A stretch of 23,352 nt of DNA from a virus: IMG/VR virus record IMGVR_UViG_3300014962_000438, positions 1 to 23,352 of that record; one strand, 5' to 3'. Position numbers and translations under genes: made by a program. Shown here piece after piece: positions 817-20,894 of this stretch (positions within the stretch are counted from its first letter, which is position 1; every line of letters begins with the position of its first letter). The notes below the pieces were generated by a model, which did not search any database, had not been told where the DNA came from, and worked only from the letters and a program-made list of their open reading frames with translations.

Positions 817-3033
817 ATGATAAGTAATAATTTAATATTAGCAGCCGCCTCACAATCTGGATATGGTCAGTATCAAGATCCTCCAAACTACATTTGGGGA
901 GTGGGTGATACATTTAATGGACAATTAGATTCAAATATAACCGCATTAGAACCAGTACAAATAGGATCATTAACAAATTGGTCTGTATTAGGATCGGCAG
1001 ATTCAAATTCGTATAGTATAAAAACAGATGGAACTTTATGGTCATGGGGCGGAAATGGTTGGGGTGGATTGGGATTAAATATATCAACAATTGGTAATGA
1101 TAGATCGTCTCCAGTTCAAGTAGGATCATTAACCAATTGGCAAAGTTTGACATCATATAGAAGCCAAGGAAATCACACATTTGCAATAAAAACAGATGGA
1201 ACACTATGGGCTTGGGGTGAAGGGGCTGCAGGAATGTTAGGAGATGGTACAACTGTTACTAAATCTTCCCCAATTCAAATCGGTGCATTAACTGATTGGA
1301 TGCAGGTTTCTAGTGGTCAATCATTTACTATGGCCGTAAAAACAGATGGAACACTATGGGCTTGGGGACTTAATAATGTTAGTCAGTTGGGCTTAGGCGA
1401 TACAACTAATCGAAGTAGTCCGGTTCAAATAGGGGCATTAACAGATTGGTTAAAAGTTGCCTGTGGTGGTAGTCATACTGTTGCAATAAAACAGGATAAT
1501 ACAATTTGGTCTTGGGGATTTAATTCTAGTGGCCAATTGGGTTTGAATGATAAAACAAACAGAAACAGTCCTGTTCAAATTGGTACACTAACAGATTGGC
1601 TAACAGTTGTTTGTGGATTTCATTTTACAATTGCATTAAAAACAGATGGTACTCTATGGTCATGGGGAAATAATGGGTTAGGTGCTTTGGGTAACAATTC
1701 ATTTGCTTCATTTAGTTCACCAATTCAGATAGGTTCTTTAACCACTTGGGCAAATGTATTTTGTGGAAACTCAACAGTTCATGCAATAAAAACAGATGGT
1801 ACACTATGGGGTTGGGGTGGTAATACACAAGGAACAATAGGAGATGGGACTACAATAAGCAAATCTTCTCCGGTTCAAATTGGAACTTATACAGATTGGG
1901 AATCTATATCAAGTGGAAATCAACATACAATAGGGAAAAGAACAGATGGAACTTTGTGGTCATGGGGTGGAAATTCGGATGTAGCTGCTTTAGGAACAGC
2001 ACAAATTTCGGCTTTAGGTAGAACAGTTATGTATTCATCGCCTATACAAATTACGCACATATCTAATATTTCTAAAATTTCATTAGATGCAAAAACAGTT
2101 CATGCTATAAAAAAAGATGGAACACTTTGGACATGGGGATATGGTGAAAATGGTGAATTGGGAAATTCGTCACTCATAGGAAAGGCATCTCCAGTACAAA
2201 TAGGAACTTCAACGGATTGGTCAAAAATTTCATCTGGAGAAAAGCATACAGCTGCGGTAAAAACAAATGGGACGCTTTGGATGTGGGGAAGGAATGATTC
2301 CGGAGAATTAGGAAATCAAAACCCATTTGTAAGTGAATCTTCACCTATACAAATAGGTACTGATACGAATTGGTATATGGTGTCCGCTGGAGCGTCATAC
2401 ACATTTGCAATAAAAACAGATGGTACTCTATGGGCGTGGGGTGCGAACAATAGAGGTCAATTAGGAACTGGTAATACATCATATTATTCAAGTCCAGTTC
2501 AAGTTGGTGCTCTTACAAATTGGTCAAATGTTTTTGCTGGATACGATCATACTATGGCAATAAAAACAGATGGTACTCTATGGGCATGGGGTTACAACGT
2601 TAGAGGCCAATTGGGAATAGGATCATTTGTCAACAGATCATCTCCTGTACAGGTCGGTTTATTAACAAATTGGAGTGATATTGCTGTTGGTGGAACTGAT
2701 GGATATACTATTGCAATTAAAACTGACGGAACATTATGGTCATGGGGAAATCATGCCAACGGTATAAATGGATTATCAGTTTCATATAATAATAATTCTC
2801 CAGTTCAAGTTGGATTATTAACAAATTGGAAAAACATTTATACTAGCAAAAACGGCAGAAGTGCAATAGCATTAAAAACAGATGGTACTCTATGGGCGTG
2901 GGGTTTGAACAGTAGAGGTCAATTGGGATTGGGTGATAGAACAAATAGAAGTAGTCCTGTTCAAATAGGTACACTAACATCTTGGGTATCTGGATCATGT
3001 GGTCAATTTTCTTCTCTATTTTTAACTTCATAA
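817..3033 (+). CDS. RCC1-repeat beta-propeller protein, probable adhesin or fibre-associated protein
   Basis: The protein has 738 residues and is made almost wholly of RCC1 (ATS1)-type repeats of about 50 residues. Each contains a core like IKTDGTLWAWG followed by GQLG and SSPVQIG-type stretches. I count 13 clear cores plus a degenerate first one (YIWGVG near residue 27), 14 in all. RCC1 domains normally fold as seven-bladed propellers, so 14 units fit two propellers in tandem. There is no signal peptide or membrane helix. ATG at 817 follows an AGAGG site 9 bases upstream. The gene sits just behind a collagen-like fibre gene and upstream of a tail-fibre chaperone, so a role in host-surface binding is inferred, not shown. 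RCC1-like repeats also occur in bacterial surface proteins, so an acquired adhesin is the main alternative. Confidence 0.85.
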   Translation: MISNNLILAAASQSGYGQYQDPPNYIWGVGDTFNGQLDSNITALEPVQIGSLTNWSVLGSADSNSYSIKTDGTLWSWGGNGWGGLGLNISTIGNDRSSPVQVGSLTNWQSLTSYRSQGNHTFAIKTDGTLWAWGEGAAGMLGDGTTVTKSSPIQIGALTDWMQVSSGQSFTMAVKTDGTLWAWGLNNVSQLGLGDTTNRSSPVQIGALTDWLKVACGGSHTVAIKQDNTIWSWGFNSSGQLGLNDKTNRNSPVQIGTLTDWLTVVCGFHFTIALKTDGTLWSWGNNGLGALGNNSFASFSSPIQIGSLTTWANVFCGNSTVHAIKTDGTLWGWGGNTQGTIGDGTTISKSSPVQIGTYTDWESISSGNQHTIGKRTDGTLWSWGGNSDVAALGTAQISALGRTVMYSSPIQITHISNISKISLDAKTVHAIKKDGTLWTWGYGENGELGNSSLIGKASPVQIGTSTDWSKISSGEKHTAAVKTNGTLWMWGRNDSGELGNQNPFVSESSPIQIGTDTNWYMVSAGASYTFAIKTDGTLWAWGANNRGQLGTGNTSYYSSPVQVGALTNWSNVFAGYDHTMAIKTDGTLWAWGYNVRGQLGIGSFVNRSSPVQVGLLTNWSDIAVGGTDGYTIAIKTDGTLWSWGNHANGINGLSVSYNNNSPVQVGLLTNWKNIYTSKNGRSAIALKTDGTLWAWGLNSRGQLGLGDRTNRSSPVQIGTLTSWVSGSCGQFSSLFLTS
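1021..2940 (+). repeat. About 150-base coding repeats of the RCC1 propeller
   Basis: The K-T-D-G-T-L-W core begins at 1021, 1189, 1339, 1489, 1639, 1789, 1939, 2110, 2260, 2413, 2563, 2719 and 2875. Seven of the twelve intervals are exactly 150 bases and the others are 153-171. The 20-base string AAACAGATGGTACTCTATGG is present in the units at about 1639, 2413, 2563 and 2875. Conservation at the DNA level goes beyond what the fold alone requires. Confidence 0.85.
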
Positions 3034-6776: not shown

Positions 6777-8666
6777 ATGAATGTAGATATATTTAAAGAA
6801 AAACTAAAACCAAAATTTTCTATAAAGACATTAGAAAATCCACAAAAAACGGCAGAACTTATTGCAGATGCTTATGAAAAAGCAACTATAAATATAAGTT
6901 CTACTATCTATGGATCAAAACTAATTTCTGCAGATAAAAGTGTTTTAGCGGATAATTTAAAAAAAGGTCTCGAATTAAATTCTAGAATAACAAAAAAAAA
7001 TCCCAATACCGTTGAGCCAGGATGGCTTATTATGGCAATGGGATTTTATTTATACTGGAATAGTGCAAAATTTACTCCAATGCCGCCAATGCCACCAGCA
7101 ACAAATCCAGCTCCAGTAAAAGATACGGGAACTATTTTAATTTTTCCTGGAAATCCAAAAAAATTAGCAGAAAATATAAAGAAAATTTTTATCACACAAG
7201 ATTTAGAATTTTTAATAAATAATCTTTCAAAGATACTATATTCACATTTAGCAACTATTACTGGTGTATATGTTGGTATAATAGCAGGAACACCACCTGT
7301 TCCATTAAATCCTATACCATGGACTGGATTGTTTGATAAACCTAAACAAAATGTTGATGGTAAACCTATAATAGATTCAAAACTTACATTTGAACAAGCA
7401 CTTCAAAATATATCAGTTCCAGAAGATATAAAAAAAACTCTAGTATTATTGGATATTCAATATATTTCTAGCGATGACAAATTACATATTGGTCAAATTA
7501 TGGTAAGTAAAGATGTTCAAAATGATGTTAAAGAATTTTTTAAAATTTTATTAGAAGAAAAATTCCCTATAAATAAAATGATTCCAGTTGTTAAATACGA
7601 TTGGGATGATGAAAAATCTATGGAGGATAATAACACATCTGGATTTAATTATAGAGTAATAGCCAATTCTGATAAAATGTCAAAACATTCATTTGGTTCG
7701 GCAATCGATGTAAACCCAAAATGGAATCCTGTTATTTATAGAGATGGAAAAATTTTGCCAAAAGGAGCATATCGTGATGAATCTGCACCGGGAACATTAA
7801 CTGATGATAACAAAGCAGTAAAATATTTGAAAAGTAAAGGATGGAATTGGGGTGGAGACTATAAATCTTTTAAAGACTGGCATCATTTTGACAAAGATAT
7901 AGATTCAAATGAGACAAAATCAAACGTTGTACCAACAAGTGACTACACATATGCTGAAATAAATCCAGCAACAGTTACAGTTGATATTGGTATACCAAAG
8001 ATAAAAAATAATATACAGTCTGGATTTCAACTTTTAAATATACCACAATGGCAACAAAGAGGATTTAAATGGTCATTTGCAAATTTAACATTATACGAAC
8101 CATCTGGTAAAGCAACGGGTGTATTTGTTAAACAAGGTAGAATTACAAACCCAATAACAGAATATCCATATTACACTATGAAAAGTGAAACAACTGGTGG
8201 TTCATTTTTTAGATATGTAACAATAGCTATTTTAAAAAATAACACAATAAAAATGTATGAAACTGATTACGATGTTAGGAGAAATATAATTCAGTCTGCA
8301 GAAGATAAAGTATTAAGAGAATTAAAATTTATTAAATTTGCTTTTTCTGGAACAGACTTATTAATCAGAGACGGTGGACCAATTGAGGAGAGAGCCGTTA
8401 GGATATTAGATGATGATAAATCAAGACCAAAAACATCAGTTGGATTTCATGGTAATAAATTGTATGTTGCAGTTACAACTGCTAAAACTTCACAAAATTG
8501 GATTAAATGGGGGAATACATTGAGAGAAATAAATGAAAATGCAACATGGATTTCTATGGATGGTGGTGGATCATCTACAATGGTTATCAAAGGAATAAAA
8601 AAACAAGTTGCAGAAGGAGTAGACGGTAGAAAAATATCTACTATAATTGGTTGGTACGAGGTATAA
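6777..8666 (+). CDS. M15-type peptidase fused to a phosphodiester glycosidase (NAGPA) domain; probable endolysin or virion hydrolase
   Basis: The protein has 629 residues. Residues 1 to about 240 are a helical, proline-containing region of unknown function, resembling N-terminal parts of some phage structural proteins. Residues about 270-375 form an M15 D,D-/L,D-carboxypeptidase-type zinc site: SKHSFGSAIDVNP supplies His304 and Asp311, and DWHHFD supplies Asp367 and His370. From about 415 a second domain shows the NAGPA (DUF2233-like) layout, with RDGGP at 531-535 and the hallmark ISMDGGGSSTM at 592-602. M15 enzymes cut peptidoglycan stem peptides; NAGPA-family enzymes cleave sugar phosphodiesters. 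I infer a cell-wall enzyme acting on peptide and possibly glycan polymer. It lies between holin-like and spanin-like genes. ATG at 6777 has no clear ribosome site. Confidence 0.8.
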   Translation: MNVDIFKEKLKPKFSIKTLENPQKTAELIADAYEKATINISSTIYGSKLISADKSVLADNLKKGLELNSRITKKNPNTVEPGWLIMAMGFYLYWNSAKFTPMPPMPPATNPAPVKDTGTILIFPGNPKKLAENIKKIFITQDLEFLINNLSKILYSHLATITGVYVGIIAGTPPVPLNPIPWTGLFDKPKQNVDGKPIIDSKLTFEQALQNISVPEDIKKTLVLLDIQYISSDDKLHIGQIMVSKDVQNDVKEFFKILLEEKFPINKMIPVVKYDWDDEKSMEDNNTSGFNYRVIANSDKMSKHSFGSAIDVNPKWNPVIYRDGKILPKGAYRDESAPGTLTDDNKAVKYLKSKGWNWGGDYKSFKDWHHFDKDIDSNETKSNVVPTSDYTYAEINPATVTVDIGIPKIKNNIQSGFQLLNIPQWQQRGFKWSFANLTLYEPSGKATGVFVKQGRITNPITEYPYYTMKSETTGGSFFRYVTIAILKNNTIKMYETDYDVRRNIIQSAEDKVLRELKFIKFAFSGTDLLIRDGGPIEERAVRILDDDKSRPKTSVGFHGNKLYVAVTTAKTSQNWIKWGNTLREINENATWISMDGGGSSTMVIKGIKKQVAEGVDGRKISTIIGWYEV

Positions 8667-9381: not shown

Positions 9382-9753
9382 ATGAAATATTTGGTTATAT
9401 TATTATTTTCAACAATAACAATTTTTGCATCTGAAAAAGATTCCGTTGTTTGTTTTAAAAAAAATGAAATTGTTAAATTGGCAAATCGTATTCAACTACT
9501 TCGTGATTCAATAGAATATTTAACGGCAGTTGTAAATATTCAAGATACCGTCATAGATTTATACCAATCAAGAACAGAAACATTTATAGAACAATTACGA
9601 AATCGTGATTATGTAATAGATGCCTGTCAAAAAAGAAGTAAAGAATTAGAAAAAATAAATGAAGAACTACAACCAAAATGGTATGATAATAAATTACTTT
9701 GGTTTTTTGGTGGAGTAGGAACTGTTTTAGGAATAATGTTTGTAGTACAATGA
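9382..9753 (+). CDS. Secreted coiled-coil protein with C-terminal membrane helix, spanin-like
   Basis: The 123-residue protein begins with a signal-like helix (MKYLVILLFSTITIFASE, possible cut after Ala16). A periplasmic coiled-coil region with two Cys (24 and about 74) follows. The last 20 residues form a second membrane helix (LLWFFGGVGTVLGIMFVV). A signal plus a C-terminal anchor is the layout of unimolecular spanins, but the lipobox cysteine those need is absent. It may instead pair with the preceding membrane coiled-coil protein. Its TGA overlaps the terminase start as ATGA. Function is inferred from topology and place only. Confidence 0.45.
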   Translation: MKYLVILLFSTITIFASEKDSVVCFKKNEIVKLANRIQLLRDSIEYLTAVVNIQDTVIDLYQSRTETFIEQLRNRDYVIDACQKRSKELEKINEELQPKWYDNKLLWFFGGVGTVLGIMFVVQ

Positions 9754-11336
9754 GTCAAGTCACTAAAAACTTAAAAGATATTATCAAAGAAGAATATGCC
9801 AAGTGTGCCTCAAATCCGGTATACTTTATGAAACGTTATGCTAAAATCCAACATCCAACTCGTGGCAAAATTCTTTTTGAATTATATCCATTTCAGGAAG
9901 ATGTTCTCAAAGAATTTAATGCAAACAGATGGAACATTGTATTAAAGTCTCGTCAGTTAGGTATATCTACATTAATTGCAGGTTACTCGCTTTGGTTGAT
10001 GTTATTCAATCAGGATAAAAATATTCTTGTTATTGCTACAAAACAAGAAACTGCTAAAAACTTGGTAACGAAAGTTCGTGTTATGTATGACAATATGCCA
10101 AGTTGGTTAAAAACAGGTGTTCAAGAAGATAATAAACTTTCACTTCGATTTAAGAATGGTTCACAGATAAAAGCCGTTTCTGCTGCTGCTGATTCTGCTC
10201 GTTCTGAAGCTCTATCACTTCTTATCATAGATGAGGCCGCCTTTATTGATGACATAGATAGAATATGGGCATCTGCACAACAAACACTTGCAACTGGTGG
10301 TACTGCAATTATCAACTCTACTCCAAATGGTGTTGGTAATTTTTATCATAAACAATGGGTAAAAGCAAAACTCGGAGAAAGTGCATTCAATCCAATAGAA
10401 TTATTATGGCAAGTTCATCCAGACCGTAATCAAAAATGGAGAGATGAACAAGATATTCTTTTAGGTCCTGATATGGCTAAACAAGAATGTGATGGAAACT
10501 TTCTTGCATCCGGTCGTGCTGTTATTGACGGTGAACTTGTTAAATGGTATGAAGATACCTATGTGTGTGAACCAAAAGAAAGACGAGGAATTGAAGATGC
10601 ATATTGGATATGGGATTATCCTGATCCTAATAAATCTTACATAGTAGTTGCTGACGTTGCTCGTGGTGACGGAAACGATTATTCAGCGTTTCATGTAATA
10701 GACGTTGATAATTTAGAACAAGTTGCGGAATACAAAGGAAAACTTGATACAAAAACATATGGTAATATGTTAGTATCAGTTGCTACAGAATATAATGATG
10801 CATTACTTGTAGTTGAAAATGCAAATGTTGGTTGGGCAGTAATTCAACAAATTATAGACAGAGGTTATCCAAATCTATATTACACATACCGTGAAGACGG
10901 TTACATAGATCCACTTGTACATATACCAAAGGGTTATGATATTAAAGATAAATCACAAATGGTTCCAGGATTTACTACAAGTTCAAAAACAAGACCATTA
11001 TTAATTTCAAAATTAGAAACTTATTTCAGAGAAAGAACACCCATAATAAAGTCTTCAAGATTGGTTGAAGAACTTTATGTTTTTGTTTGGAACGGTGCAA
11101 AGGCAGAGGCACAACAAGGATATAACGATGACTTAACATTGTCATTTTCTATTGGACTTTGGGTTAGAGATACTGCAATAAAATTACGTCAAGAGGGTTT
11201 AAATCGTACAAGAATGAGTTTAGATTATTTCGGTAAAGGATCAACTATACAATCATCTATATCGAATAATAAAGATGATGGTTGGTCTATGAAAGTTCGT
11301 GGTAACAATGAAGATTTAACTTGGTTGATTAAATAG
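9750..11336 (+). CDS. 17: Terminase large subunit, T4 gp17-like
   Basis: The 528-residue protein starts at ATG 9750, overlapping the previous stop as ATGA; an in-frame TTG at 9699 lies inside the upstream gene. The ATPase half shows a T4-type Walker A variant (KSRQLGIST, 66-74), Walker B (LLIIDEAAF, with Asp161-Glu162) and the coupling motif NSTPNGVGNF. The nuclease half has the RNase H-like acidic set: Asp302 in VADVARGDGND, Glu356 in LVVENANVGW and Asp460-Asp461 in YNDDLTLS. The enzyme binds the portal, pumps DNA into the prohead and cuts the concatemer. The length is somewhat under the T4 protein. No small terminase gene was recognised nearby. Confidence 0.95.
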   Translation: MSQVTKNLKDIIKEEYAKCASNPVYFMKRYAKIQHPTRGKILFELYPFQEDVLKEFNANRWNIVLKSRQLGISTLIAGYSLWLMLFNQDKNILVIATKQETAKNLVTKVRVMYDNMPSWLKTGVQEDNKLSLRFKNGSQIKAVSAAADSARSEALSLLIIDEAAFIDDIDRIWASAQQTLATGGTAIINSTPNGVGNFYHKQWVKAKLGESAFNPIELLWQVHPDRNQKWRDEQDILLGPDMAKQECDGNFLASGRAVIDGELVKWYEDTYVCEPKERRGIEDAYWIWDYPDPNKSYIVVADVARGDGNDYSAFHVIDVDNLEQVAEYKGKLDTKTYGNMLVSVATEYNDALLVVENANVGWAVIQQIIDRGYPNLYYTYREDGYIDPLVHIPKGYDIKDKSQMVPGFTTSSKTRPLLISKLETYFRERTPIIKSSRLVEELYVFVWNGAKAEAQQGYNDDLTLSFSIGLWVRDTAIKLRQEGLNRTRMSLDYFGKGSTIQSSISNNKDDGWSMKVRGNNEDLTWLIK

Positions 11337-11396: not shown

Positions 11397-13286
11397 ATGG
11401 CTGAAAGAAAGTCTTTGTTTGACAGATTGAAGACTCTTTTTTCCACAAATGTTGTTGTAAGAAACGTTGGTGGTAAAAGATTAAAAGTTGTTGATACTGC
11501 ACGTTATCAGGCAGATGGAAACCCACATACATCGAAAGTAGTGGATAGATATGGTCGTCTCCATGGATCAAGAGGTACACCAATATCTGTATACAACCAA
11601 TATAATTCATTCTCTGCAACAAAAATAGACCTTTACACAGATTATGAGGCAATGGACACGGATGCAATAGTTTCATCGGCTCTTGACATTTATGCAGATG
11701 AAAGTACATTGAAAAATGATATTGGTGATGTTTTAAATATTAAAACTGATAATGATAATATACGAAAGATTCTTCGTAATCTATTCTATGACATATTAAA
11801 TATAGAATATAATCTTTGGCCTTGGGTACGTAATCTATGTAAGTACGGTGATTTTTATTTATATTTGGATGTAAAAGAGGGATTGGGTATTACAAACGTT
11901 GTTCCGTTTTCTCCATATGAAATGCAAAGAGAAGAAGGAACCGATCCAGAATATATTTATATGACTAAATTTATTTATGAGGGTCCACTCGGTAAAGGTG
12001 AATTTCAAAATTATGAAATTGCACATTTTCGTTTAATGGGTGATACTAATTTTTTACCTTATGGTAAATCCATGATAGAAGGTGCAAGAAAATTGTATAA
12101 ACAATTAGTTCTCATGGAAGATGCAATGCTTATTCACCGTATTATGAGGGCACCTGAAAAAAGAGTTTTTAAAGTGGATATTGGCAATATACCTCCAGGT
12201 GAAGTTGATACATATATTGATCAAATAATGAAAAAAATGAAAAAAGTTCCTGTAATGAACGAACAGACAGGTGAATATAATCTACGATTTAATATGCAAA
12301 ATCTTTTGGAAGACTATTATCTTCCAGTTAGAGGAGCACAGTCTGCAACAAGTATAGATACTTTACCTGGATTACAATATCAAGCAATAGAAGATGTTGA
12401 ATATCTTAAAAGTAAAATATTTGCTGCTCTAAAAATACCAAAGGCGTTCTTGGGTTATGATGAAACAACCGAAGGTAAGGCAACTCTCGCTGCTCTTGAT
12501 ATTAGATTTGCAAGAACAATAGAAAGAATACAAAGAATAGTAATTTCAGAATTAAGTAAAATTGCAATAGTACATTTATACGCTCAAGGTTATGAGAATG
12601 CTGATTTAGTTAATTTTGAGTTGGGTTTAACAAGTCCATCCATTGTTTATGAACAAGAAAAAGTTGCTCTTATGAAAGAAAGAGTAGATTTGGCGTCTCA
12701 ATTAATTGAAAATAAGTTGTTTTCTATGAAGTACATATACTCAAATATATTTAACTTATCAGATGACCAAGCTGAATTTGAAAGAAATGAAATACTTGAA
12801 GATATTAAACACAAATTCCGTCAAACTCAAATTGAAAGTGAAGGAAATGATCCAGCAATAACAAAAGAATCCTTTGGAACACCACATGATATTGCAGTTA
12901 TGCACACAAAGGGTGGTAGTTCAAAGATGTATCAAATAAATGACAATGAAATTCCAGATGGCGGTTGGCCTGGTGCAGGAAGACCTGCAAAAAATCTTTC
13001 ATATTCAACAGACGATAGTCCTTTTGGGAGAGATCCAATTGGTAAAAAGGATGTTGGTAACACATTAAAAGTAAATCAATCATCAAAACACACATATAAA
13101 AATAATTCACCATTATCAGTTGAATCAAAGATGATGGTACATGATTTTGATAAATTAATAAATAGTATGAATGGATTTAAGGTAAAAACTAAAGAAATTA
13201 TATCCGAAAGTTTAAAACCAGTTAAATATGACGAAGAAAATGAATCTAATTTACTTAATGAAGACAATTTATTAAAGGAATTGTAA
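11397..13286 (+). CDS. 20: Portal protein, T4 gp20-like
   Basis: The 629-residue protein starts at ATG 11397 after an AAAAGGTG site. It has the T4-type portal layout: DLYTDYEAMDTDAIVSSALD near residue 80, NLCKYGDFYLYLDV near 150, an IPYG-like NFLPYGKSMIEGARK near 220, RIMRAPEKRVFKVDIGN, and ALKIPKAFLGYDETTEGKAT near 350. A dodecamer of this protein forms the head vertex, starts prohead assembly and is the docking site for the terminase. It follows the terminase directly and precedes the head genes. The C-terminal part from about residue 500 (GGWPGAGRPAKNLSYSTDDS and onward) is low in complexity and makes the protein longer than the roughly 520-residue T4 portal. Confidence 0.95.
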   Translation: MAERKSLFDRLKTLFSTNVVVRNVGGKRLKVVDTARYQADGNPHTSKVVDRYGRLHGSRGTPISVYNQYNSFSATKIDLYTDYEAMDTDAIVSSALDIYADESTLKNDIGDVLNIKTDNDNIRKILRNLFYDILNIEYNLWPWVRNLCKYGDFYLYLDVKEGLGITNVVPFSPYEMQREEGTDPEYIYMTKFIYEGPLGKGEFQNYEIAHFRLMGDTNFLPYGKSMIEGARKLYKQLVLMEDAMLIHRIMRAPEKRVFKVDIGNIPPGEVDTYIDQIMKKMKKVPVMNEQTGEYNLRFNMQNLLEDYYLPVRGAQSATSIDTLPGLQYQAIEDVEYLKSKIFAALKIPKAFLGYDETTEGKATLAALDIRFARTIERIQRIVISELSKIAIVHLYAQGYENADLVNFELGLTSPSIVYEQEKVALMKERVDLASQLIENKLFSMKYIYSNIFNLSDDQAEFERNEILEDIKHKFRQTQIESEGNDPAITKESFGTPHDIAVMHTKGGSSKMYQINDNEIPDGGWPGAGRPAKNLSYSTDDSPFGRDPIGKKDVGNTLKVNQSSKHTYKNNSPLSVESKMMVHDFDKLINSMNGFKVKTKEIISESLKPVKYDEENESNLLNEDNLLKEL

Positions 13287-14490: not shown

Positions 14491-14994
14491 ATGAGCATAC
14501 AGTCTTTCATAAAACAAATACATGAATCAGAAGAATTTAGAAAGTTTAGAGAAGAAATCGAATTAGAAGAAACTAATACAACGGCTTCTGTTCCTGGATA
14601 TCAAACACCTAATGCATTTTCTCCGAGTAAAAGTAATTTTGAAAAAACTAGTAAAGATAATGCAGAAGTTCAAGGGTATAAACTCACTCAAAAACAAAAA
14701 AAGAAAAATTTTGAGTCTGTTTACAAACAAGCAATGAATATAATTAACGAAGGAACTTACAAAGAATTTCGTAAAGATGAAACTCGTAGTTCAAACAGAA
14801 AAATAAATGATTCCATAAAGAATATAAACAAAACAATTTATGAAGTGGAAAGAGTAGTTGAACATGCATTAAAATTAAAAACAGAAATGAATGTTGATCA
14901 AAGAACTCTTTGGGGTGAATCCATGAATAGATTGAGAAAAATATCCGAAAGAATAAACAGAATTACAAAAAAAATAAACGAATTGGGTGCATAA
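14491..14994 (+). CDS. Head-region protein, possible prohead core component
   Basis: The 167-residue charged, helical protein starts at ATG 14491. Residues about 27-45 (ETNTTASVPGYQTPNAFSP) match a motif type I associate with proteins beside the prohead protease in other T4-like phages. The C-terminal half (KINDSIKNINKTIYEVERVV to the end) is probably coiled coil. It sits directly upstream of the gp21-like protease, whose ATG follows its stop by one base. A scaffold or core role is inferred from position. The exact function is unknown. Confidence 0.5.
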   Translation: MSIQSFIKQIHESEEFRKFREEIELEETNTTASVPGYQTPNAFSPSKSNFEKTSKDNAEVQGYKLTQKQKKKNFESVYKQAMNIINEGTYKEFRKDETRSSNRKINDSIKNINKTIYEVERVVEHALKLKTEMNVDQRTLWGESMNRLRKISERINRITKKINELGA

Positions 14995-14995
14995 G

Positions 14996-15664
14996 ATGAA
15001 AGAATTACTTATAGACACTATATTGTTTAATGTAAACCCACAGCAGATAGTTGAAAGTCAAGGAAATAATGGTAAAGTTATAGTAAAAGGTGTATTACAG
15101 AGAGCAGAAGCAAAAAATCAAAATGGTAGGGTTTATCCCAAACAAATTTTGATGCGGGAAGTAAAAAAATATCAAGAAAACCAAATAAAAGAAAACCGTG
15201 CTCTTGGTGAATTAGACCATCCAGAATCATCCGTGATAAATCTTCGTAATGTATCACACAATGTACTTGAAGTAAAATGGAATGGTAATGATGTGGTTGG
15301 TGTTGTAGAAATATTACCAACACCATCTGGCAATATATTAAAAGAACTATTAAAATGTGGAATAAGATTGGGTATAAGTTCAAGAGGAATGGGGAGCGTA
15401 GAAGAAGTAAACGAGGGAACAGTTGAAGTACAAGACGATTTTGAATTAATTGGTTGGGATTTTGTTTCAAACCCATCAACACATGGTGCATTTATGTACC
15501 CATCTAGAAAAAATGAAGGTATGAATGAATCTTTGATTTCAGAAAGTATAGATATAAAAACAATTTCAAAAATAGATCCTAAAATAGAAAGAATACACAA
15601 AAACGTAACAAACATTATATGTGAAATTGGTAATGTTTGTGAATGTATATTTGATGGGAGATAA
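14996..15664 (+). CDS. 21: Prohead core protease, T4 gp21-like
   Basis: The 222-residue protein starts at ATG 14996, with GGGTG at 14985-14989; an in-frame GTG at 14987 would add three residues and overlap the previous gene. The herpesvirus/T4-type prohead protease signature is clear: NGRVYPKQIL, then GELDHPESSVINLRNVSH with catalytic His75, and RLGISSRGMGS with the catalytic serine at 128 or 129. A GWDFVSNPSTHGAF stretch follows. The enzyme digests the inner scaffold and trims the capsid protein during head maturation. The last 50 residues are less conserved and may be removed by self-processing. Confidence 0.93.
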   Translation: MKELLIDTILFNVNPQQIVESQGNNGKVIVKGVLQRAEAKNQNGRVYPKQILMREVKKYQENQIKENRALGELDHPESSVINLRNVSHNVLEVKWNGNDVVGVVEILPTPSGNILKELLKCGIRLGISSRGMGSVEEVNEGTVEVQDDFELIGWDFVSNPSTHGAFMYPSRKNEGMNESLISESIDIKTISKIDPKIERIHKNVTNIICEIGNVCECIFDGR

Positions 15665-15666
15665 AA

Positions 15667-16278
15667 ATGCCTGCATCGTCACAACAACAACAAAAAATAA
15701 TGGGATTGGCTCTTTCGTATAAAAGAGGAGACACACCTGCATCAGAAGTTAGTCCTACTGTTAAAAAGTTGGCAGATAATATGTCTGAAAAACAATTAGA
15801 AAAATATGCTGGAACATCCCATAAAGGTCTACCAAAAAAAGTAGGTGAGACAAAGGGTGATACAAAAATAAAAGTTGAAGATTTAAAACAAATGGTTCAA
15901 AGTGCAGTTGAAGAAGTTATGCAAGAAAGACTTTCTATGAAAAATTTAACACCTGAACAAAAACAAAGATACATAGAATCAATTGGTAGATATAATGAAT
16001 ACAAAGATATTGTTTATCGTTCAAATCATTTAGCCGAAACGGTAAATGAAATAAGAAATATAATAGAATTTGCTTCAAAAAATATGGTAGAAGAATCTGG
16101 TGATTGGTTTGAAGGTATATCGCATAGAAGAAATGCAAAAAAATTAAAAGAGGCATTTAAATTATTTGAAAAAACAACAGATAAAATAGTTAAGTTACAA
16201 TCAACACTCGAATCTATTTACGAAGGAATGGGTAAATATTTGGGTAAATTTTATGAAATAAATAACAAAGGAAAATAA
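15667..16278 (+). CDS. DUF3008-type N-terminus joined to a helical head-region domain
   Basis: The 203-residue protein starts at ATG 15667 after GGGAG, 6 bases upstream. Residues 1 to about 57 match the DUF3008 pattern: MPASSQQQQKIMGLALSYKR, then MSEKQLEKYA and SHKGLPKK. DUF3008 proteins are normally small stand-alone bacterial or phage proteins. Here a charged, helical part of about 140 residues follows (VEDLKQMVQSAVEEVMQERL, later EFASKNMVEESGDWFEGISH). The gene is between protease and bS21, so a prohead-core role is possible but not shown. Confidence 0.65.
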   Translation: MPASSQQQQKIMGLALSYKRGDTPASEVSPTVKKLADNMSEKQLEKYAGTSHKGLPKKVGETKGDTKIKVEDLKQMVQSAVEEVMQERLSMKNLTPEQKQRYIESIGRYNEYKDIVYRSNHLAETVNEIRNIIEFASKNMVEESGDWFEGISHRRNAKKLKEAFKLFEKTTDKIVKLQSTLESIYEGMGKYLGKFYEINNKGK

Positions 16279-16281
16279 GTT

Positions 16282-16512
16282 ATGAGCGATAGAGTATATG
16301 CACCAACATCAAAACCTGCTCATGTAAAGGTTAAGGCAAATGGAATGGATGTTGATTCTATGATTAGGATATTTAAGAGAAAAGTAAAAGAAGCCGGAAT
16401 ACTTGAAGAATATAAAGATAGGATGGAATATGTAAAACCATCTAAAAGAAAAGTAGAAAGAAAAAATGCCGCAGTTCGTAGACAAAGAAAAATGGATGCG
16501 GAAAATAAATAA
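16282..16512 (+). CDS. rpsU: Phage-encoded small ribosomal subunit protein bS21
   Basis: The 76-residue basic protein has the bS21 pattern. A short strand (VKVKANGMDVDSMIR) is followed by the helix IFKRKVKEAGILEE, then a YVKPS motif like the YEKPS/T of cellular bS21. A long Arg/Lys-rich helix follows (KRKVERKNAAVRRQRKMDAE). Cellular bS21 is about 55-75 residues and sits on the 30S platform near the anti-Shine-Dalgarno end of 16S rRNA. Published surveys report bS21 genes in several phage groups. The phage copy may exchange into host ribosomes and favour viral messages; this is inference. It lies among head genes, 3 bases after the previous stop, with AAAGGA upstream of ATG 16282. Confidence 0.85.
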   Translation: MSDRVYAPTSKPAHVKVKANGMDVDSMIRIFKRKVKEAGILEEYKDRMEYVKPSKRKVERKNAAVRRQRKMDAENK

Positions 16513-16535: not shown

Positions 16536-16551
16536 TAGAATACAATACCCT

Positions 16552-16638
16552 ATGAAGTTAAGAATTAAAGAATATCTTAAAATATATGGGGTTTACATAT
16601 TTTTTTTGTTGATTGATGTTACAAATAACATCAAATAG
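16552..16638 (+). CDS. Possible 28-residue leader ORF with a hydrophobic core
   Basis: An ATG at 16552 opens a 28-codon frame ending at TAG 16636-16638, 12 bases before the scaffold ATG. The peptide begins MKLRIKEYLKIYGVYIFFLL and continues with IDVTNNIK, so it has a short hydrophobic stretch after a basic start. No ribosome site precedes it. It may be a chance open frame, or a leader peptide whose translation affects the hairpin that overlaps its 3' end. Confidence 0.2.
   Translation: MKLRIKEYLKIYGVYIFFLLIDVTNNIK
16613..16634 (+). promoter_or_regulatory. Hairpin in the scaffold gene leader
   Basis: TTGATGTT (16613-16620) and AACATCAA (16627-16634) pair perfectly over 8 bases around the 6-base loop ACAAAT. 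The stem ends 6 bases before the GGAG ribosome site at 16641-16644. No T-run follows, so it is not a terminator. It could influence message stability or scaffold translation. Confidence 0.4.
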
Positions 16639-16650
16639 TTGGAGATTTTT

Positions 16651-17757
16651 ATGAATGATTTACTTAAAGAAGCAATAGCAGATGCAAAAGCAGTTAGAGA
16701 AGTTGCTCTTGCAAATGCTAAACTTGCTTTAGAAGAAGCGTTTACACCAAAGCTTCAGTCAATGCTTTCAAAGAAACTTTCAGAAGAAGCAGAGTACGAA
16801 GAAACAGACGAGTCCGTTTTTGAGGCAGACGATGAAATGGAACATGGTTCATCAGAAGAAGATATGCAGGTAAAAGAGGAAGAAGATGAAGAACCTGCAT
16901 TTGATCGAATGAAAGAAGCCGATGATGAAGACGAAATGGACATTGATGAATTTTTTAGCGAAGCAGAAGGTGAAGAAGAAACTGAAGCACCTGTGCATGA
17001 TGAAGAACCAGTCGAAGAAGGTGAAGATGAAGAAGAAATCGATGAAGATTTGATGGAAATAATACGTCAATTAGAAGAAGATATTGATTCATCAGGAATT
17101 GGAACCGGTGATAATAAAAAACCATCACCAGTTGCTTCAGACGATAGTACAGAAGACAAAAAAGAAAAACTAGTTCAGTTGGTAAACGAAGAAGACGATG
17201 AAAAATCCGATGATATTGAAGAAATGTTTAGATCAATTCGTGAAGAAGACGAAGAAGAATCTAAAGAAAAGGTTGAAGAAGCTGAAGAAGATGATGAAAC
17301 CGTTGATATTAAGGAAATTCTACGTGCTCTTCGTGAAGAAGAAGACGAATCAAAAGAAAAGGTTGATGAAGGCGAAGATGAAGAAAAAGAAAAAGAAGTT
17401 GCTGAGGCAAAATTACGTGAAGCTTATGCTGTAATAACATTCCTTCGTTCTAAAATAAACGAAGTAAATCTTTTAAATTCAAAGTTGCTTTTCTCTAATA
17501 AAATTTTCAAAAAGTATTCTTTGTCCGAAAGTCAAAAGTATACTGTAATTGAGAATTTTGACCGTGCTTCAAGTTTACGTGAAGTAAAACTTGTATATGC
17601 AACACTTTGTGAGGCAATCAAATCAACAAAAACAAATGTAAAACCAATCAAAGAATCATTTGCAAGTAAACCAATTGGAAGCACACGACCAAAAAATATT
17701 ATTAACGAAAGTGATAATATGGCAGAAAGATTAAAATATTTAGCAGGTTTAAAATAA
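16651..17757 (+). CDS. 22: Prohead scaffold protein, T4 gp22-like
   Basis: The 368-residue protein starts at ATG 16651, with GGAG 6 bases upstream; an in-frame TTG at 16639 is less likely. The N-terminus is a helix (MNDLLKEAIADAKAVREVAL). Residues about 48-250 are extremely rich in Glu and Asp with short helical units. The C-terminal 120 residues form a normal helical domain (LREAYAVITFLRSKINEVNL onward) ending NMAERLKYLAGLK. Position between protease and capsid genes, composition and C-terminal layout all fit the prohead core scaffold, which is digested by gp21. The acidic part is longer than expected from the 269-residue T4 protein. Sequence identity to gp22 itself is weak by eye. Confidence 0.85.
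   Translation: MNDLLKEAIADAKAVREVALANAKLALEEAFTPKLQSMLSKKLSEEAEYEETDESVFEADDEMEHGSSEEDMQVKEEEDEEPAFDRMKEADDEDEMDIDEFFSEAEGEEETEAPVHDEEPVEEGEDEEEIDEDLMEIIRQLEEDIDSSGIGTGDNKKPSPVASDDSTEDKKEKLVQLVNEEDDEKSDDIEEMFRSIREEDEEESKEKVEEAEEDDETVDIKEILRALREEEDESKEKVDEGEDEEKEKEVAEAKLREAYAVITFLRSKINEVNLLNSKLLFSNKIFKKYSLSESQKYTVIENFDRASSLREVKLVYATLCEAIKSTKTNVKPIKESFASKPIGSTRPKNIINESDNMAERLKYLAGLK
17209..17395 (+). repeat. Duplicated acidic module within the scaffold protein
   Basis: Residues from Asp187 (DDIEEMFRSIREEDEEESKE) and from Asp219 (DIKEILRALREEEDESKEK) are two copies of one module about 31 residues long. Each is a short amphipathic helix then an acidic run ending SKEKVxE. A third related helix (EIDEDLMEIIRQLEEDID) lies near residue 130-147. 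Confidence 0.7.
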
Positions 17758-17775
17758 TTTATTAAGGATATTAAA

Positions 17776-19450: not shown

Positions 19451-19480
19451 AAAGGAGTGAGATTTTCTCACTCCTTTTTT
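19451..19480 (+). terminator. Intrinsic terminator after the major capsid gene
   Basis: GGAGTGAG (19454-19461) and CTCACTCC (19467-19474) form a perfect stem around the loop ATTTT, extended by AAA/TTT to 11 pairs. T19475-T19480 provide the T-run. It is the only strong terminator seen in the window and lies 23 bases after the capsid stop, separating the head genes from the GAF-like/PhoH/neck genes. Confidence 0.9.
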
Positions 19481-20162: not shown

Positions 20163-20894
20163 ATGACACTCGATAATGACTCAAATGAAATAAATGAAAA
20201 TAATGTTGATGGATTTGAAACAAATGGTATAAAGAAAGGAAGAAAAATAATAAAAAATAAAATACAATTTCAATTATCACTAAATGAAGAACAAAAAAAA
20301 GTAAAGTCAATGGCATTACAAGATACCGTTTCTGTTTTTTTAGGTAAAGCTGGTTCTGGTAAAACTCTTTTGGCTACACAAATAGCACTTGAATATCTTT
20401 TTTACCGTGAAGTAGATAGAATAATAATTACAAGACCAACAGTATCAAATGAAGACTTGGGATTTCTTCCAGGAAACATAAAAGAAAAAATGGATCCTTG
20501 GTTATCGCCTATACAAGCAAATATGCATATGTTGTATAGTAAAGAAAAGATTGAAAAATTGACACAAGAAGAAAAAATAGAGATTGCACCTATTAGTTTT
20601 CTTCGTGGCAGAACATTTGTTAATGCTTGTGTAATAGTAGATGAATCACAAAATGTAACAAAAACACAAATGGAAATGGTATTGTCTCGTTTGGGTGTAA
20701 ATTCAAAAATGATTTTAACGGGAGATGCAGGTCAAATAGATTTGAAACAGAAAAAAGATTCTGGATTACCATATTTATTTGATATGAAAGATAAGATTCA
20801 AGGATTAGGTGTATATGAATTAAAAACAAATCACAGACATCCAATAGTTGATAGTATATTAAAATATTTTGATGATAACAAAACAGAGAAATAA
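20163..20894 (+). CDS. phoH: PhoH-like P-loop ATPase
   Basis: The 243-residue protein starts at ATG 20163 after AGGAG. A 30-residue acidic then basic N-terminal tail precedes a PhoH domain. The domain has FLGKAGSGKT (Walker A, Gly61-Thr68), RIIITRPTVSNEDLGFLPG, the characteristic IAPISFLRGRTF, Walker B CVIVDESQN (Asp160-Glu161) and ILTGDAGQID. PhoH proteins are ATPases linked to phosphate-starvation regulons in bacteria and common in marine phages; their role there is unsettled (RNA metabolism and helicase-like activity have been proposed). It is placed between a GAF-like protein and neck-like genes. No pho box was recognised upstream. Confidence 0.92.
   Translation: MTLDNDSNEINENNVDGFETNGIKKGRKIIKNKIQFQLSLNEEQKKVKSMALQDTVSVFLGKAGSGKTLLATQIALEYLFYREVDRIIITRPTVSNEDLGFLPGNIKEKMDPWLSPIQANMHMLYSKEKIEKLTQEEKIEIAPISFLRGRTFVNACVIVDESQNVTKTQMEMVLSRLGVNSKMILTGDAGQIDLKQKKDSGLPYLFDMKDKIQGLGVYELKTNHRHPIVDSILKYFDDNKTEK

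Follow-up and report, generated by a model that had tools for sequence, protein, structure and literature searches.

The DNA analyzed here, a 23,352-base virus record referred to as the window throughout, comes from a large T4-like phage that carries its own copy of a ribosomal protein, bS21, among its capsid genes. Across 119 capsid lineages, bS21 copies with an N-terminal extension are associated with strong Shine-Dalgarno (SD) sites in front of the capsid gene, which suggests, on comparative grounds, that these phages retune the choice of messages. The explanation that we prefer, and regard as probable although only just so, is that phage bS21 swaps into host 30S subunits and favors SD-led phage messages.

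The window contains a T4-type head module, in which the genes for the terminase large subunit (TerL), gp20 portal, S77 prohead protease, DUF3008 protein, bS21, scaffold-like protein, gp23 major capsid protein (MCP), and PhoH follow one another in this order, with bS21 and the head genes all on the + strand. An earlier reading made from the letters alone (the sequence-only reading) had placed bS21 between a DUF3008-type gene and the scaffold gene, which was confirmed by the ORFs of the window and their Pfam/PHROG matches. The features are as follows.

9750-11336, + strand: terminase large subunit (PF03237, phrog_2)
11397-13286, + strand: gp20-type portal protein (PF07230, phrog_213)
14987-15664, + strand: prohead protease, Peptidase_S77, gp21 type (PF03420, phrog_207)
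15667-16278, + strand: DUF3008-domain protein, directly upstream of bS21 (PF11450)
16267-16272, + strand: SD of the bS21 gene, AAAGGA (duplex about -5.8 kcal/mol)
16282-16512, + strand: phage-encoded ribosomal protein bS21, 76 aa (PF01165, TIGR00030, phrog_21469; AF2 model; Foldseek)
16282-16320, + strand: N-terminal extension of bS21, MSDRVYAPTSKPA (alignments, extension length, model)
16547-16592, + strand: conserved, terminator-like hairpin (ACCCTA / TGGGGT) between bS21 and scaffold, with a T-tract at 16600-16607
16613-16634, + strand: second hairpin, TTGATGTT/AACATCAA, immediately 5' of the scaffold SD; base changes in relatives are paired
16651-17757, + strand: acidic scaffold-like protein (SD GGAG at 16641-16644; position as in phage Mel-JY01)
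17776-19428, + strand: major capsid protein gp23 (PF07068, E 7e-79; SD AAGGA at 17764-17768)
20163-20894, + strand: PhoH-like ATPase (PF02562; SD AGGAG)

For two of these genes, an ATG was favored over the TTG that opens the longest ORF, i.e. 9750 over 9699 for the terminase and 16651 over 16639 for the scaffold. No Rfam family and no tRNA were found in the window. The window also encodes a 738-aa protein (817-3033, + strand) consisting mostly of RCC1 repeats (11 stretches; RCC1-like propeller, E 2e-150), which is unusual in a phage and adjoins a collagen-repeat protein (3-794). A 629-aa protein (6777-8666, + strand) joins a Peptidase_M15 endolysin-like domain to a phosphodiester glycosidase (NAGPA) domain.

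The ORF at 16282-16512 encodes a genuine bS21 with the bS21 helical fold. It starts with ATG and encodes 76 aa, as the sequence-only reading had it, and the antisense frame over the span is broken by an internal stop. Both curated profile cut-offs are exceeded across the whole bS21 core, with 47.5 bits for PF01165 (Pfam; cut-off 27, E 1.5e-12) and 50.7 bits for TIGR00030 (NCBIfam; cut-off 28.95, E 1.1e-13), and the PHROG family phrog_21469, "ribosomal protein S21," matches as well (E 5.6e-9). A phmmer search of the PDB returned 22 distinct chains, every one of them named S21 or bS21. The AlphaFold (AF2) model (mean pLDDT 79, pTM 0.43) has predicted helices at residues 24-38, 40-48, and 53-75, and Foldseek matched it exclusively to ribosomal bS21 chains and organellar homologues. 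The best matches (8rd8_NV, 8ekc_u, and 4ybb_AU; probability 0.97-0.99, E-values only 0.06-0.13) come from the ribosomes of P. urativorans and E. coli, the organellar homologues being weaker. None of the E-values is below 0.05, because the protein is small and helical. Profile search and structure prediction, two of the checks proposed together with the original assignment, thus bear it out. Because bS21 is kept in >200 IMG/VR contigs and occupies the same position in Microcystis phage Mel-JY01, it is not a chance ORF.

As assessed by alignments, window bS21 has an N-terminal extension of ~12 residues that is missing in E. coli and F. johnsoniae bS21. Residues 1-6 are low-confidence/disordered in the model, and the pattern MSDRVY..KPAHVKVK is conserved in the window's bS21 group. 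The position of Tyr54 is occupied by Arg in the window, and by Arg/Lys across its clade. F. johnsoniae bS21 (PDB 7jil), which belongs to the same family, controls access to the anti-SD, and the reading of SD sites, in that species (McNutt 2023, PMC9976891). It has no N-terminal extension, has Tyr54, and is encoded by an rpsU gene with an extended SD, and window bS21 differs in all three respects. Two hallmarks of the Bacteroidia-type, anti-SD-sequestering bS21 are absent, namely Tyr54 and a strong rpsU-type SD, the SD in the window being ordinary (about -5.8 kcal/mol) rather than extended as in Bacteroidota rpsU (< -13 kcal/mol).

The sequence-only reading further held that bS21 is made together with the capsid genes. 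Although the gene does lie in the same head cluster, the terminator-like hairpin and T-tract that follow it, which are conserved in the window's subclade, split it from the scaffold and capsid genes, and it is therefore more likely to be co-transcribed with its upstream neighbors, the DUF3008 and protease genes, than with that of the capsid. Judging from this arrangement, bS21 may end one transcript, and scaffold and capsid may begin another. The second hairpin (16613-16634) is likewise conserved, and where its bases differ among 8 relatives, they do so in pairs that preserve the stem. A conjectured phage promoter motif downstream of bS21 showed neither enrichment in the window nor a clear pattern in relatives. 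A perfect 12-bp hairpin, terminator-like on both strands, is found directly after the capsid gene (19451-19477).

A survey of IMG/VR contigs yielded 214 confirmed bS21 candidates. The virus copies form a group of their own, and no close bacterial bS21 emerged as their source, a scan of bacterial genomes having yielded one poor 20-residue match and no near bS21. Mel-JY01 bS21 is 52% identical to that of the window (72% for the capsid protein), and the cultured immuto phages of Flavobacterium, whose capsid is related (55%), lack bS21. Capsid-based scans defined 119 distinct capsid lineages. In 69 of them, a sense-strand bS21 gene lies upstream of the capsid gene, mostly by about 1-2.6 kb, in a slot between the protease and scaffold/capsid genes. 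As assessed by local phmmer, the DUF3008 domain is present in 22/69 lineages with bS21 vs 1/50 without. On the capsid tree, the presence of bS21 requires five changes, which is most simply read as an old gene lost several times. A very divergent bS21 occupies the same slot in the 484-kb huge phage LR756508 (L137:6771-7010), whose record is unannotated.

To quantify SD use, we scored GGAG, GAGG, or AGGA at -18 to -5 of the start as an SD core; we chose this definition ourselves and kept it simple, as we did in taking the first ATG as the ORF start and in assigning functional labels by homology to Mel-JY01 genes. In the window, a core precedes 10/24 starts vs 1.9 expected (maximum 6 in 1000 shuffles), which agrees with the earlier remark that many of these genes have GGAG/AAGGA sites. 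In the 119 lineages, an SD core precedes the capsid gene in 64/66 lineages with extended bS21, 0/3 with non-extended bS21, and 6/50 with no bS21, the latter six all belonging to one clade; a Fisher value on these counts ignores the relatedness of the lineages. Orthologue by orthologue, SD sites were found for 59/62 MCP genes in lineages with bS21 vs 0/45 in bS21-less lineages outside that one clade, and for 38/49 vs 0/37 PhoH genes. When all genes are considered, 393/789 have an SD with N-extended bS21 (50%, background 5%), and 21/267 with non-extended bS21 (8%, background 7%). The extended groups with Lys, Arg, and Tyr/Phe at position 54 reach 42, 47, and 58%, respectively, vs a background of 3-6%, with a sharp peak near -10. 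Chance or composition as a cause of the signal is ruled out by this peak and by the flanking and intragenic background. Residue 54 (Tyr vs Arg/Lys) was rejected as the determinant of SD use because both types use SD sites.

Where bS21 is missing, SD use is at background level in 4/5 branches of the capsid tree. The large bS21-less clade has 9% vs 7% background, and three further bS21-less branches have 4 vs 5%, 7 vs 7%, and 8 vs 4%. Two contigs (162 and 99 kb) in which no bS21 was found anywhere have an SD in front of 9/208 and 3/126 ORFs, respectively; the cultured, bS21-less Flavobacterium phage immuto has no SD sites. Non-extended bS21 likewise accompanies SD-poor genomes (LR756508, L294, L306, the Bacteroidia-type phages L112-L131, and four huge phages). 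The main exception is a clade formed by L333 and five relatives (L340, L341, L342, L348, and L292), which uses SD sites (21% vs 3% background; 6/6 MCP genes) and lacks bS21 throughout, including a contig as long as 297 kb. This clade speaks against the preferred explanation, as does the fact that, the lineages being kin, the tree offers only 2-5 independent contrasts, which puts significance out of reach. What carries the case is how large the contrast is, its recurrence in separate losses, and the data for individual orthologues rather than a corrected p-value. The split by N-terminal extension was noticed post hoc, from the exceptions, so that fresh data are needed. The idea in the sequence-only reading that such sites are used more efficiently thus gains comparative support from 119 lineages.

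Is the effect directed at late messages, as had also been proposed? In two sister groups of the window's clade, the bS21 gene has no SD (0/18 for the other Arg types and 0/24 for the Tyr/Phe types; 0/42 in total), whereas the capsid gene almost always does (19/19 and 22/24; 41/43 in total), and in four long contigs replication genes are SD-poor (7/48) vs late genes (38/85). An SD-free bS21 gene combined with SD-bearing late genes is the pattern that a switch would need. However, the TerL and portal genes of these groups are also without SD sites, and the pattern may therefore just as well single out those virion proteins that are most abundant. The window's own clade is different: an SD precedes its bS21 gene in 20/23 cases, and early (9/23) and late (19/52) genes are alike, i.e. 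there is no visible late switch, which counts against our preferred explanation. SD use is thus late-biased in the sister clades only and extends to early genes in the window's clade, and the proposed reprogramming for late messages is supported only in part.

A stronger form of the preferred explanation, which we consider unlikely, is a switch in SD-blind hosts. Native Bacteroidota ribosomes would translate the early genes and the SD-free bS21 message; N-extended bS21 would then free the anti-SD and turn these ribosomes SD-reading, and SD-bearing late messages (capsid, scaffold, and tail) would win. The window's clade would be derived, its SD sites having spread genome-wide. The SD counts of the two sister groups fit this scheme, as do the Bacteroidia-like Tyr54 of Y-type copies (e.g. 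KAAYIQ in L197) and the finding that C-terminal loss in F. johnsoniae bS21 exposes SD reading (PMC9976891). Conversely, the Tyr54 that Y types keep should block the anti-SD, the window's clade lacks an early/late contrast, and independent contrasts are few.

Host type could drive both the presence of bS21 and SD use. Lineages with bS21 would infect SD-reading hosts and their bS21-less sisters SD-blind Bacteroidia (e.g. Flavobacterium), phage SD sites would mirror the host, and bS21 would boost or restore initiation in general. This is a real possibility, if on the unlikely side. It is consistent with the genome-wide SD sites of the window's clade, early and late alike, with the Arg/Lys that, as in E. 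coli, stands in place of Tyr54, with the absence of SD sites in immuto, a bS21-less sister infecting Flavobacterium, with SD use without bS21 in the L333 clade, and with the record of Mel-JY01 from Microcystis. On its own, however, matching to the host leaves unexplained the SD-free bS21 gene in 42/42 sister-group lineages, their SD-poor replication genes, and the pairing of non-extended bS21 with SD-poor genomes. Host-related genes of the bS21-carrying phages also tell against it. Fib_succ_major proteins are encoded by several of them (G001, G003, Mel-JY01, and G033), and the 177-kb contig G003 (IMGVR_UViG_3300028394_000036; L096-L104) encodes a TonB-dependent receptor with a CarboxypepD_reg domain (L103:11427-14228), closest to Hymenobacter among plasmids, both of which hint at Bacteroidota-like hosts. 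The same contig encodes full-length GroEL, glutamine synthetase, asparagine synthase, SAM synthetase, and SAM lyase domains. A cyanophage identity via psbA was rejected, with no Photo_RC in 13 records. Although Microcystis is the recorded host of Mel-JY01 (L011/PP395634), the phage has a Fib_succ_major gene and no psbA-type gene to support that record, and its host may be a companion bacterium of the culture. Conversely, genome-wide SD sites in the window's clade argue against Bacteroidia hosts. Since the host pointers conflict (Fib_succ_major/TonB genes and a Flavobacterium sister phage vs the Microcystis record and genome-wide SD sites), the two leading explanations stay apart.

Phage copies of bS21 have been reported, as the sequence-only reading stated (Mizuno 2019, PMC6375957; Al-Shayeb 2020, PMC7162821; Chen 2022, PMC9723584), and because head-cluster bS21 is already published, the basic find is not new. 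Mel-JY01 RpsU (PP395634, WWT39311) resembles that of the window in gene order, strand, SD use, and N-terminal extension but has Lys at the Tyr54 position, and extra genes separate it from scaffold. Chen 2022 described head-cluster bS21 in Bacteroidetes phages, transcribed with head genes and expressed late. Their freshwater clades a-e are, like our phage, large myoviruses with bS21 in the TerL/portal/protease/capsid region, for which a late-stage ribosome takeover was proposed, as here (PMC9723584). By contrast, their bS21 is on the opposite strand (sense in the window, as in 69/119 lineages), and position 54 is invariably aromatic there, whereas it is Arg in the window and Arg/Lys across the clade. 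The N-terminal extension of ~12 residues also sets window bS21 apart from their set, and their text describes no SD link. In the main text of Al-Shayeb 2020 (PMC7162821), huge-phage rpS21 has N-terminal extensions, as in the window, proposed to favor phage mRNAs, and the SD analysis there concerns rpS1, not rpS21. Among the viral bS21 found by Mizuno 2019, the copy of Pelagibacter phage HTVC008M, a phage bS21 like ours from a different phage and host, enters E. coli 70S ribosomes but left them nearly inactive in vitro (PMC6375957), which weighs against the preferred explanation. A role outside translation regulation, in which bS21 would only top up 30S assembly or serve as a basic structural protein inside virions, is quite improbable. 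Packaging was raised by Chen 2022 (PMC9723584), and the protein is small, basic, and encoded next to the scaffold and protease genes; the strong link with SD use and the conservation of the bS21 core point the other way.

In the explanation that we prefer, the product of the window gene would be a functional bS21 that replaces the host's own copy in 30S subunits. We infer this replacement from the fold, the profile match, and the exchangeability of another phage bS21; the timing of its action and the causal direction of the bS21-SD link are inferred as well. Beside the 16S anti-SD tail, phage bS21 would favor initiation on SD-carrying phage messages, above all those for abundant virion proteins (scaffold, capsid, and the PhoH neighbor), and the N-terminal extension would be the part likely to act on the SD:anti-SD helix or the mRNA. 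In the main texts of the published papers searched, no connection between bS21 and SD sites is described for phages, and the link of N-extended bS21 with capsid-gene SD sites across 119 lineages appears to be new. Since 2019, no more than general proposals have been offered for why phages carry bS21. The link of N-extended bS21 with capsid SD sites, traced orthologue by orthologue, provides a concrete, testable hypothesis, and the SD-site idea was in this respect the valuable part of the sequence-only reading. If the link is causal, these phages would make a specialized ribosome that alters the initiation rule of their host.
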